Assembly (NCBI RefSeq): GCF_002906575.1
Contig: NZ_CP026310.1
Location: 62,001-126,000, forward strand
Source of the DNA: Salinigranum rubrum
GTDB lineage: Archaea; Halobacteriota; Halobacteria; Halobacteriales; Haloferacaceae
Direction: 5' to 3'
DNA length: 64,000 bases
The notes below the pieces were generated by a model that was not told the DNA's origin, did no database searches, and saw only the letters and a list, made by a program, of their open reading frames with translations. The first letter of the stretch is position 1; each line of letters begins with the position of its first letter. The translations under genes and the position numbers were made by a program. Positions 46,790-58,708 of the stretch are shown in pieces.

Positions 46790-47510
46790 CCACCTTCGGC
46801 ATCGAAATGGACTGTGAACCACCCGAACCGCCTGAGAAACTCGAGAAATGTGTCGGTATCGACGTTGGGATTCTCAAGTACGCCCACGACACCGACGGGA
46901 CCGCCGTCGGGTCGCTTGATCTCTCCGATGTACGGGAGCGACTTGAACGCGAGCAGCGGAAACTTTCGCACAAACAGCACGGGTCGAACCACTGGAAGAA
47001 GCAATGGCGGCGGGTCACGGAGTGTCACGCCGACCTCCGACAGAAGCGCCGCAACTTCCTCCACAAGCTCTCGAACTACTACGCTCGGGAGTACGACCTC
47101 GTGGCGGTGAAAGAATCGCCGTCGAACAGTCGCAACACGGCGCCGGCGACGTGGCGAACGTTCCTCTCGTTGCTCGAATGCAAGTGCGAACGCGAAGGGA
47201 CGCACTTCGTGGCAGTCAACCCGAAGAGAACGATAAAAGAGTGCGCGTGGCGTGCGGTGTCTTGACGAAGAAGCCGCTGTGGGTCCGTGATCATTCGTGT
47301 CCTACCTGCGGGTTCGAGGCAGACAGGGACGCGAACGCGGCGTGGAACATTCTTTCTCGCGGTCTGGAAGACGTAGGAGTGGGACACTCCGAAAGAACGC
47401 CGTGGAGCCTGCAATCCTTGTGGATACGTCCGTATCTGCAAAGCGCGTCGTGGAATCAGAAGCCCAACCCTCAAGGAGCGAACGAAAAAGCGGTGAGCGA
47501 GTAAGGTAGG
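46790..47510 (+). pseudogene. tnpB: TnpB (IS200/IS605 family) remnant
   Basis: The first frame has the RuvC start CVGIDVGILKYAHDTDG, EREQRKLSHKQHGSNHWKKQ, DLVAVKESPSN (second acidic residue) and GTHFVAVNPKRTIKECA. The next frame continues LTKKPLWVRDHSCPTCGFEA and DRDANAAWNIL (last Asp, zinc ribbon). A third frame holds VDTSVSAKRVVE. At least two frameshifts are needed, and the N-terminal 180 or so residues are absent, with the remnant directly abutting the lipoprotein gene. TnpB is an RNA-guided nuclease that keeps the element at its donor site; this one cannot work. Confidence 0.8.
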
Positions 47511-55177: not shown

Positions 55178-56410
55178 CTACTCTCGAGTCCAGTCCTGCA
55201 TCCGACTGTCCTCAAGGATCGTTTCGCGAACGACTTGCAGGTCTTCGATGAGACGGTTCTGAAGATGAATTCCACCTGCACTACCCTTGTTGATCTTTTC
55301 AATTTCGATGACCCCGAGGAACGCTTGTTCTTTTAGAATGTCGCGGAATCGTCGAACCGAGAGGATGTCCATATCGAGGTGGTTGCAGATTCGTTCGTAC
55401 TGGTCGTACACCCGGCTCGTGAGGAAGGCTTCGTCGTTGGAGTTGACGCTTAATTCGGTCAGTGCGAGTAGCGCGGCTTTCGCTTGCGTGGGCGCACCGT
55501 TCACGAGTTCTCTAAACCGGTCCTTTTCGGCATGTTGCTGAGCTTGCCGAACGTGTTCCTCCGTCACTTGCTCTGCACCGGCCTCAAATGCGACCTCCCC
55601 AGCATGACGAAGAATATCAATCGCCTTCCGAGCGTCGCCGTGTTCCTGCGCAGCAAAAGCAGCTGAGAGCGGAATCACGTCCTCGGAAAGAACGTCGTCC
55701 TGGAAGGCGTCCTCCCGATTGAACATGATTTCGCGAAGCTGGTTCGCATCGTACGGTTTGAAGAACAGTTCCTTGTGCTGGAAGCTGCTTTTCACGCGCT
55801 CGTTGACGTTATCGACATACTGAATCTTGTTACTGATCGCGATGATGCCTACACTACAGTTAATCTTCCCTGCTTCCTCAGCTCGTGAGAGTTTCATCAG
55901 GACGCTATCGTCATTCATTAGATCGATCTCGTCCAAGATGATGATCACAGAATCAAATTGTGCGTCAAGCGTCTTCCAGAGGAGTTTGTAATACTTCGAC
56001 GTGCTGAGACCAGTGTGAGGGACGGTGATTCCAGTAGTTGATTCATCGTTCAATTTCGCCGCAAGAGATGAGACAGCTTGAGTCTCGGTATTGTCCTCAG
56101 CACAATCAATATACGCTGTTCCAATCTCTACACCGTCTTGGGCGGCATTTTGCGCCCGTTGACTGACGTGTTTTGAAACAAGAGATTTACCAGTCCCTGT
56201 CTTCCCGTAGATCATCACGTTCTCTGGAGAGTACCCGTGGACAGCGCCGTTGAGACGTTTGGCGAGTTTCGAGATCTCCTCATCGCGACCGACGATCCGG
56301 TCAGCTTCCGGAACGTGACCGATTTTCAGGAGATCCTTGTTCGCGAAGATACGATGCCCGGATTCAAACAGTGGGTCGTCGACAGAACTGGGTGAAGAGT
56401 CGGGCGTCAT
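55178..56410 (-). CDS. orc1: Orc1/Cdc6 replication initiator
   Basis: The 410-residue AAA+ protein has MIYGKTGTGKSLVSKHVSQR (Walker A), SVIIILDEIDLMNDD (Walker B), VGIIAISNKIQYVD (sensor 1) and EHGDARKAIDILRHAGEVAF (sensor 2), followed by a C-terminal winged helix (SVRRFRDILKEQAFLGVIEI). It binds ORB repeats and opens the origin. Repeats flank the gene on both sides, with an AT-rich stretch upstream, so this is an autonomous origin-initiator unit of the kind found on haloarchaeal plasmids and secondary chromosomal origins. Start ATG 56410. Confidence 0.88.
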   Translation of the reverse strand: MTPDSSPSSVDDPLFESGHRIFANKDLLKIGHVPEADRIVGRDEEISKLAKRLNGAVHGYSPENVMIYGKTGTGKSLVSKHVSQRAQNAAQDGVEIGTAYIDCAEDNTETQAVSSLAAKLNDESTTGITVPHTGLSTSKYYKLLWKTLDAQFDSVIIILDEIDLMNDDSVLMKLSRAEEAGKINCSVGIIAISNKIQYVDNVNERVKSSFQHKELFFKPYDANQLREIMFNREDAFQDDVLSEDVIPLSAAFAAQEHGDARKAIDILRHAGEVAFEAGAEQVTEEHVRQAQQHAEKDRFRELVNGAPTQAKAALLALTELSVNSNDEAFLTSRVYDQYERICNHLDMDILSVRRFRDILKEQAFLGVIEIEKINKGSAGGIHLQNRLIEDLQVVRETILEDSRMQDWTRE

Positions 56411-56462
56411 TAAGTATCACACGATGTGAGCGGATGGAGTATAAATCTAGTGGAGGAAACCA

Positions 56463-56635
56463 CCCCACGTTTCCGACGTTACTTATCCAGGATCAGCCGT
56501 AAAATGGCTTAATTCGGTGAAATCGGACTACTGATAATATAACCGCATTTCCGACGTAGGGGTAGAAAACCTAGAGACGGTAGCGTGGTCATGATTTCGA
56601 AGCTCGTACCCACACACCCTACATTTCCGTCGTAA
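56463..56635 (+). repeat. Origin recognition boxes, group of three
   Basis: Direct copies CACCCCACGTTTCCGACGTTAC (core shown only; 56463-56482), CCGCATTTCCGACGTA (56543-56558) and ACATTTCCGTCGTAA (56615-56635) lie 50-225 bases upstream of the orc1 ATG. They share orientation with the downstream group. Confidence 0.72.
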
Positions 56636-56739
56636 TCGCATACCGGCAGGGGAGGGGAGTTGAAGAGGACGTCCACGACGGAAGAACCGGGACAAGAGCG
56701 CTATTGCCGTCCACAAATAGACGTCTGAAGGAAGATCTA

Positions 56740-56930
56740 AAGAGGTTTGTTTCGCCTGAGGAGAGCGAAGTACCTCTTCTCCTTATACCAAGCGAAGCAT
56801 GCTTAATGAGCGTTTCTCACTGATACTATTTTAATCTATGTCAGACAGATCTTAGTTTATATCTAGATAATCTTTAACATAATATTGCTAATATCTGTAT
56901 ACTACTGATCTTGGTCTCGTCCTACGCTGT
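56740..56930. other. AT-rich stretch, putative DNA unwinding element
   Basis: Between two inverted ORB groups, the sequence becomes strongly A+T-rich (for example TTTATATCTAGATAATC and TTAACATAATATTGC). This is the expected place for origin melting. Compared with the G+C-rich surroundings the contrast is obvious by eye; no gene is present. Confidence 0.6.
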
Positions 56931-56940
56931 CGTAGGGAAA

Positions 56941-57020
56941 CGACGGAAACATGGGGGGTGTGATGGACTTAGTATCGGTCCTACCTCCTTCACAGCCTCA
57001 AGTTACGACGGAAACGTGGG
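56941..57020 (-). repeat. Origin recognition boxes, inverted group of two
   Basis: CGACGGAAACATGGGG (56941-56956) and TTACGACGGAAACGTGGG (57003-57020) are reverse complements of the ORB core and face the AT-rich stretch from the far side, giving the inverted arrangement typical of archaeal origins. Confidence 0.72.
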
Positions 57021-57353
57021 TGGGTGTCTTCCCTCCCCAATCGGTCTGATATCTCCTCGAGACGACTCTCACATTCCTTTTTCCCAGACAGCGCTTCGTC
57101 TTACGTGGCAACGTCCAAGTCTCTATTGCGAGGCTCGTCGGTGTTACGAGGTTCGCCGGGGGCCGGTGGTTCGTAGGACATCGGTTGCTCTCGCGTCGTT
57201 CGTACGTAGCAGCGTGGAGCAGCCCAATATTCGGTGCATTCCGGCGAGTATCGGCGGAATATTTTTTATGTCAGCAGCGTCCGGCCGGTTGATTCGCCAG
57301 CGCGGCCAGCGCGTCGAGTGTGGCGTGTTCGAACTGAGAGGGAGCCACTTGAT

Positions 57354-57515
57354 GTGAGCATCGAGCGGCGACTCAAGGAGTTCTGGACGCAGATGACGTG
57401 CCCACGTTGTACCATCCGAGCATCCACACGTGAGAATCCTCTGCTTATGGCGTTTCAGTATCTGGATCGTGTCGCTGAGTTGATGCGGGAGGAGAGATTC
57501 GGTGCTCTTGATTGA
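57354..57515 (+). CDS. Possible 53-residue protein with one CxxC
   Basis: GTG 57354 opens MSIERRLKEFWTQMTCPRCT and ends MREERFGALD. There is one CxxC and a charged helix. No ribosome site is obvious and the family is not recognised. The rest of 57021-57353 holds only scattered frames without features. Confidence 0.3.
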   Translation: MSIERRLKEFWTQMTCPRCTIRASTRENPLLMAFQYLDRVAELMREERFGALD

Positions 57516-57973
57516 ATTGAAATGAGCTGTTGGCAGTTGGTGGTGCGAGGAGTGAAGTCAGACGAACGGCCTTCATCTCTGCAATGGTTGAAGTCACGTT
57601 AACTTTGCCGTGAGTTGTGGTAGACTGTTGTCTCCATCGCGGAGACCGTGGAACCAACACCGTGACAATCTCATATTTTAAATCTTCACCCGTCATTAAT
57701 AGATATCATCTGTCTATTCTGTTTGAAAATAAACATATATAAGGTGTCGACGAATATGTAACTCAAATAGCAAGGCTATGTGAAAGCAATTCGGTGTGAA
57801 ATTTCACACGCTTTTTCGCTAAAGCCTTTGATCGAGTGTGCAAGAGTGTATTGAAAAGACAAAAATACCTACTAAATTAAAGGTTTTTCATAAAAATGGG
57901 ATAGTTCTACTAGGGTTTTAACTTCTATCACTCCATACCAGAGACTAACAATGGCAATATGAGAAATGAACGG

Positions 57974-58101
57974 CCTGGCTGAAATCCAGGTCAACGGCCA
58001 GGTTAGTGCTCTCGCTTTGAGAGGCTGTGGAGCACTAACCCGATCGCCACCTCTGTGATAGAGGCGTGCTGGGGCTATACCAGCCCCGTTTAGCGTACGC
58101 T
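57974..58101 (+). ncRNA. Run of five stem-loops, candidate structured RNA
   Basis: Successive perfect stems: CCTGG/CCAGG (57974-57990), GGTTAGTGCTC/GAGCACTAACC (58001-58040, 11 base pairs), CCTCT/AGAGG (58050-58064), GGGGCT/AGCCCC (58071-58087) and the palindrome AGCGTACGCT (58092-58101). A further CCAGG at 57998-58002 could compete for the first stem. They lie about 100 bases before ATG 58211, with CGGAGGTGA at 58161-58169. Strand and function are uncertain: leader RNA, small RNA or single-strand replication structure. No coding potential on either strand explains the stems. Confidence 0.45.
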
Positions 58102-58210
58102 TTAGACGGTTAAAAACAATCGTGCATGGAGAGGGGGATTCATCCTGCTTTCTCAATTCCGGAGGTGAAATAGATTCAAATCTAGGAAATTGAACGAACC
58201 ACAGGCGGAT

Positions 58211-58708
58211 ATGGTAGCTGAACTGACGCAAGAAGAGATAATTCTGGTCGGCCTTCGAGCAACTGGGATCAGTGTTTCAGAGTTACAAAAATTCGATATT
58301 TCAACTGTTGATGACCTCGGAATAGTTCAAGGGGATACATTGAAAATTGGGGAAATTGATGTGGATAATTCGTCCGAGAAGCAGCGGCTAGTGAACCTGC
58401 TCTTGAAGAGTATCGAGAGCAGCCAATTGGCCAGATTTGATATACCATCGGGGAAGGTGCCACGCATACGGTTTCGGGATGGCGCCATCCGCGTAGGTGG
58501 ACTCGCCCAGCGCGCCGAATTCATCGAAGAACTCGTCGTGATCCATCATCAGTTCGTTCAATCGTTCGCGCTCACCGTCGGACTCCTCGGGCCGTATCGG
58601 CGTCGACTAAGCCGATGTTGGAAACGGTTTCGGTGGCCCGTCAGGAGAGAGCGCCGCTTTGCCCTCACGTCTCCGCTGTACCGCGCTTCGAGTGATGTAT
58701 CGAGATAA
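58211..58708 (+). CDS. Hypothetical protein, probably fused to foreign 3' end
   Basis: ATG 58211 begins MVAELTQEEIILVGLRATGI, and about 80 residues (to FDIPSGK) look like a normal acidic/helical protein with a helix-hairpin pattern (SVSELQKFDISTVDDLG). After about 58465 the frame reads Arg-rich text that is the antisense of a different gene fragment, and base composition jumps. I infer that a recombination junction truncated the gene and that the present C-terminus (WKRFRWPVRRERRFALTS) is accidental. Function unknown. Confidence 0.35.
   Translation: MVAELTQEEIILVGLRATGISVSELQKFDISTVDDLGIVQGDTLKIGEIDVDNSSEKQRLVNLLLKSIESSQLARFDIPSGKVPRIRFRDGAIRVGGLAQRAEFIEELVVIHHQFVQSFALTVGLLGPYRRRLSRCWKRFRWPVRRERRFALTSPLYRASSDVSR
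58470..58595 (-). pseudogene. Carboxymuconolactone-decarboxylase-like remnant
   Basis: The minus strand reads ERERLNELMMDHDEFFDEFG, then ALGESTYADGAIPKP, resembling the start of haloarchaeal carboxymuconolactone decarboxylase/AhpD-like proteins (RERLNDLVMDH, YxDGALDxKTKEL). The rest of the domain, with its CxxC, is missing where the low-G+C region begins. Probably cut by the recombination that joined the plasmid-like segment to the chromosome-like segment. Confidence 0.4.

Follow-up and report, generated by a model that had tools for sequence, protein, structure and literature searches.

A candidate orphan structured RNA beside a probable replication origin in the haloarchaeon Salinigranum rubrum

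In translational attenuators of the Erm type, translation of a leader peptide from a short upstream frame frees the Shine-Dalgarno (SD) sequence. In archaea, the fluoride riboswitch of Thermococcus kodakarensis was, as of 2021, the sole natural riboswitch shown experimentally (cited in PMC8241225), and in the synthetic theophylline riboswitch E of Haloferax volcanii the leader can bury a GGAGG SD and the start region in near-degenerate folds (PMC8241225). The role of SD pairing in haloarchaea is disputed (PMC3986360).

Here we describe a candidate structured RNA encoded in a 64,000-nt stretch (the window) of a 237-kb contig of Salinigranum rubrum. Like riboswitch E, it is predicted to be able to bury its SD and start through near-degenerate folds, but it has no known aptamer and its SD would lie 21 to 42 nt from the start rather than about 7. 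Like the fluoride riboswitch, it would be an archaeal 5' RNA element with a defined structure, whereas its fold is much larger, it has no Rfam match and the orphan frame downstream is not a fluoride exporter. Upstream lies a short frame, and ribosomes translating it would mask the anti-SD strand, much as in the Erm-type attenuators, although the element has no conserved leader peptide and blocking the anti-SD strand left the SD paired in the folding model. Like haloarchaeal intergenic sRNAs, it is intergenic, structured and of plausible size, but it is a predicted RNA without a homologue. Its features, and those that adjoin it, are as follows.

57966..58058, plus strand: 30-codon frame, its stop codon (58056-58058) lying directly after the anti-SD strand, which ends at 58055
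57968..58170, plus strand: the whole structured element, a predicted RNA of about 203 nt, defined by minimum free energy (MFE), z score, shuffles and unstructured flanks
57972..57992, plus strand: P1, a 7-bp hairpin, GGCCTGG/CCAGGTC (57972-57978/57986-57992), pair probability 0.56
58001..58040, plus strand: P2, a 12-bp hairpin (58001-58012/58029-58040; 11 bp perfect; inverted repeat I3), p 0.95
58048..58055 and 58160-58167, plus strand: P3, the closing helix, with the anti-SD-like 5' strand CACCTCTG and the 3' strand CGGAGGTG
58061..58103, plus strand: P4, the stem GAGGCGTGC/GTACGCTTT with an inner stem TGGGGCT/AGCCCCG at 58070-58088, p 0.86
58106..58123, plus strand: P5, the hairpin ACGGTT/AATCGT, p 0.94
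58128..58153, plus strand: P6, a stem with inner GGGA/TCCT, p 0.49 and 0.99
58154..58192, plus strand: alternative local hairpin TCAATTCC...GGAAATTGA covering the TTG start, from the MFE structure of a longer RNA
58161..58168, plus strand: SD GGAGGTGA, an 8/8 match to the haloarchaeal consensus (as given in PMC8241225)
58190..58471, plus strand: 5' part of an orphan open reading frame, start at TTG 58190 or ATG 58211
58466..58590, minus strand: remnant of the N-terminal part of a carboxymuconolactone decarboxylase gene (PF02627), marking the junction

Folded as plus-strand RNA, 57968-58170 has an MFE of -88.2 kcal/mol, against a mean of -66.1 kcal/mol (sd 4.45) for shuffled sequences (z -4.97), and 0 of 1000 dinucleotide shuffles were equally stable; these energies were computed for standard salt rather than for molar KCl. 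The element ranks first among the 319 consecutive 200-nt windows of a plus-strand grid laid over the whole window, a grid that was phased to start on the element's site and somewhat favours its rank, and some other windows of the grid reach z around -4. The flanks at 57800-57960 and 58220-58400 fold no better than random on either strand (z +0.5 to +1.4), and the structured stretch thus has sharp limits. At its 3' edge, adding 15 nt strengthened the z score of the 3' domain (58041-58170) from -2.96 to -3.99, and further sequence weakened it again, the score peaking with the 3' end at 58170, immediately beyond the SD helix. The minus strand of the element also beats random (z about -3.4 to -3.8), mainly through symmetrical hairpins. 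For the 3' domain alone, z is -3.99 on the plus strand and -1.83 on the minus strand, a number of its base pairs being G-U on the former and A-C on the latter, and this preference favours an RNA made from the plus strand over an element acting at the DNA level.

The predicted layout has two parts, a 5' domain that consists of P1, with its competing pairings, and P2, and a branched 3' domain in which P3 encloses P4, P5 and P6. The initial annotation had described five consecutive stems, an 11-bp perfect stem, an alternative pairing and a ribosome-site-like sequence, all of which are present in 57968-58170. The competing CCTGG pairings that it had likened to a switch were likewise recovered, among CCTGG/CCAGG/GGCC repeats, with P1 (p 0.56) opposed by a pairing of GGCC at 57972-57975 with 57996-57999 (p 0.39); a AACGGCCTGG/AACGGCCAGG repeat spans 57969-58002. 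The 11-bp perfect stem (58001-58011/58030-58040) lies inside P2, which also holds an inner 4-bp stem (58014-58017/58022-58025). By itself the 11-bp stem is unremarkable: perfect inverted repeats that reach 11 bp or more, with loops no longer than 30 nt, occur at six separate places in the window. A 119-amino-acid frame on the minus strand over the element was set aside because it matches no family and its codon composition is uncharacteristic.

The fold of the SD region depends on where the RNA ends. P3 forms with p 0.94 in an RNA of 57965-58185, and its probability falls to 0.03 once the RNA runs to 58240, because 58154-58192 then folds into the local hairpin over the SD and the TTG; the CACCTCTG strand pairs further downstream in this extended RNA. 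In the long RNA the P3 fold and the alternative hairpin fold are 2.1 kcal/mol apart, which gives two near-equal structures, one with the SD buried and the other with the start region buried. In the folding model, opening the SD costs 5 kcal/mol and opening the SD together with the TTG costs 7.5 kcal/mol. Such near-degeneracy allows a bistability that is switch-like in the computed sense only, and the riboswitch-like alternation between folds in which the SD or the start is accessible or hidden is seen here by prediction only. The SD lies 21 nt from the TTG and 42 nt from the ATG, outside the 4 to 10 nt before the start of an intact gene that would be looked for in a riboswitch. This gap appears too long unless a small predicted hairpin between the SD and the TTG (58171-58184) is looped out, which could reduce it to about 7 nt.

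The upstream 30-codon frame may encode a leader peptide or may be due to chance; nine ATG frames of at least 20 codons occur in 57500-58470, where such sizes are common. Attenuation through a leader peptide was rejected, since blocking everything 5' of and including 58071 still left the modelled SD about 71% paired; the SD stays paired because the local hairpin replaces P3. About 160 bp before the RNA, a perfect 16-bp palindrome, GTGTGAAATTTCACAC (57794-57809), is followed by a T-rich stretch and is possibly an operator or a terminator.

The orphan frame downstream is cut at about 58466-58470 and continues as a chimaera to 58708. Its G+C content by codon position (0.57/0.33/0.48) is protein-like and resembles that of the neighbouring orc1 (0.61/0.35/0.59), which suggests that it probably was once a gene. 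Searches of 167 genomes of the family and 292 of the class, together with plasmids, phages and IMG/VR, found no convincing relative, nor did scans for its peptide patterns across 85,000 species. A match of 38% in genome G182 runs, mostly antisense, across an apparent glutamate synthase locus and was taken as chance. The decarboxylase gene has an intact relative (locus L088 of genome G322) with 82% DNA identity from 58471, which bears out the initial annotation in placing an open frame truncated at a junction downstream of the element. At about 58466-58470 the sequence passes from the orphan frame into the start of the decarboxylase gene on the opposite strand, so that both genes are cut at one junction.

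DNA searches with the element itself in 170 family and 391 class genomes, and searches with a covariance model (R1) in 167 and 391 genomes, yielded chance matches only; because R1 rests on a single sequence and the large genome searches were pre-filtered by similarity, distant relatives could be missed. The weak R1 matches (13-20 bits, E 0.01-0.9 per genome), mostly over the P1/P2 region, were rejected as chance hits in coding sequence, and all twelve that were checked lay within long open frames, most of them G+C-rich. At 58038-58064 a 27-nt match that recurred between genomes has an rRNA-like look and proved to be a coding motif of a phosphate-transporter ATPase, PstB-like as judged by eye. 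Plasmid and phage collections held no homologue, the element being on no other plasmid, and exact-pattern scans of viral contigs (IMG/VR) and of genome contigs (85,000 genomes) returned short chance matches only. In agreement with the initial annotation, which had recognized no known RNA family, Rfam 15 gave no match at the gathering threshold, those below it (E 0.86-5) being attributable to chance, and ARAGORN found no tRNA or tmRNA gene in the element. With no homologue in any collection searched, there is no covariation to compare.

The best reading of these data, which we hold tentatively, is that the plus strand encodes a discrete structured RNA, a candidate orphan some 200 nt long, and that this RNA most likely formed the 5' leader of an orphan gene starting at 58190 or 58211. 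The leader fold would bury either the SD GGAGGTGA, through 58048-58055/58160-58167, or the start region, through the hairpin at 58154-58192, and so lower translation until a ligand, a protein or the ribosome tipped the balance. The orphan gene would later have been cut by recombination into the decarboxylase gene, leaving the leader stranded beside the plasmid origin, probably without an intact target. In favour of a leader are the z of -4.97, the rank of 1/319, the peak at 58170, the plus-strand preference, the 8/8 SD, the near-degenerate folds, the protein-like codon composition downstream and the unstructured flanks. Against it stand the lack of homologue and covariation, the distance of the SD from either start (21/42 nt), the broken target gene and the sensitivity of the SD helix to the RNA end (p 0.94 versus 0.03). 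Two features of H. volcanii also count against it: most transcripts there are leaderless, leaders of more than 150 nt being rare (PMC4983044), and the SD was not used in a leader that was tested (PMC3986360). The initial annotation, which had offered a riboswitch-like leader, a small RNA or a single-strand origin, is as a whole partly supported. It is highly unlikely that the locus represents a new class of natural haloarchaeal translational RNA switch, carried by an unsampled haloarchaeal plasmid or virus, in which a large branched leader toggles between a buried SD and a buried start codon. If real, a haloarchaeal leader that hides a perfect SD would bear on archaeal riboswitches and on the role of the SD. 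At present the element is a single orphan prediction beside a broken gene, of value mainly because it offers RNA-seq and structure probing a target with clear boundaries.

A rather doubtful alternative is that the RNA is free-standing and non-coding, either a trans-acting sRNA or a plasmid or virus RNA, that it stops near 58170 and is unrelated to the frame downstream, GGAGGTG being merely the 3' strand of the closing helix. The sharp edges at 57968 and 58170, the two-domain fold, the weakening of z with downstream sequence and the poor SD-start spacing would all suit such an RNA, and H. volcanii has many non-coding transcription start sites (PMC4983044), but neither a homologue nor an Rfam match was found, no T-run directly follows 58170 and the TATA-like site TTTTAA at 57916 is weak. 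We also regard as unlikely a neutral fold, a chance cluster of several inverted repeats within a decayed intergenic fragment that has no RNA function. The element is an orphan in every collection searched and is flanked by a decayed piece of a transposase gene and by a truncated gene, its 11-bp stem is not rare in the window and other windows reach z -4; chance accounts poorly, however, for 0/1000 shuffles, first rank in 319 windows, the many simultaneous stems, the sharp edge and the strand asymmetry. Least probable of all is a DNA-level element, whether a single-strand origin, as the initial annotation had proposed, a nick site or plasmid recombination palindromes, because, although origin-like repeats beside orc1/cdc6 lie within about 1-1.5 kb and the minus strand also folds above random (z -3.4), the plus strand folds better, especially in a 3' domain that relies on G-U pairs present on that strand only (z about -4 versus -1.8), the replicon is of the Orc1/Cdc6 and ParA type, no rolling-circle Rep was found among the window proteins scanned (a subset of frames) and the element is absent from all other plasmids searched.

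The element is part of an A+T-rich orphan fragment, about 950 bp long, that adjoins an Orc1/Cdc6 gene (orc1/cdc6, 55178-56410, minus strand) and origin-like repeats. Beside this gene, 56450-57030 contains repeated TTTCCGACGT / ACGACGGAAA motifs and is a probable replication origin with ORB-like repeats; a VapB-type antitoxin gene (PF02697; 54462-54737, minus strand) lies near it. To the left of the element, 57306-57442 holds a decayed zinc-ribbon transposase piece, IS1595-type as judged by eye only, that shares 73-78% identity with copies in a congener (G165) and on contig C4 of the same genome. Farther away, a short OrfB/TnpB-type frame (IS605, Cas12f-like) at 46807-47265 probably represents only part of a larger transposon gene.
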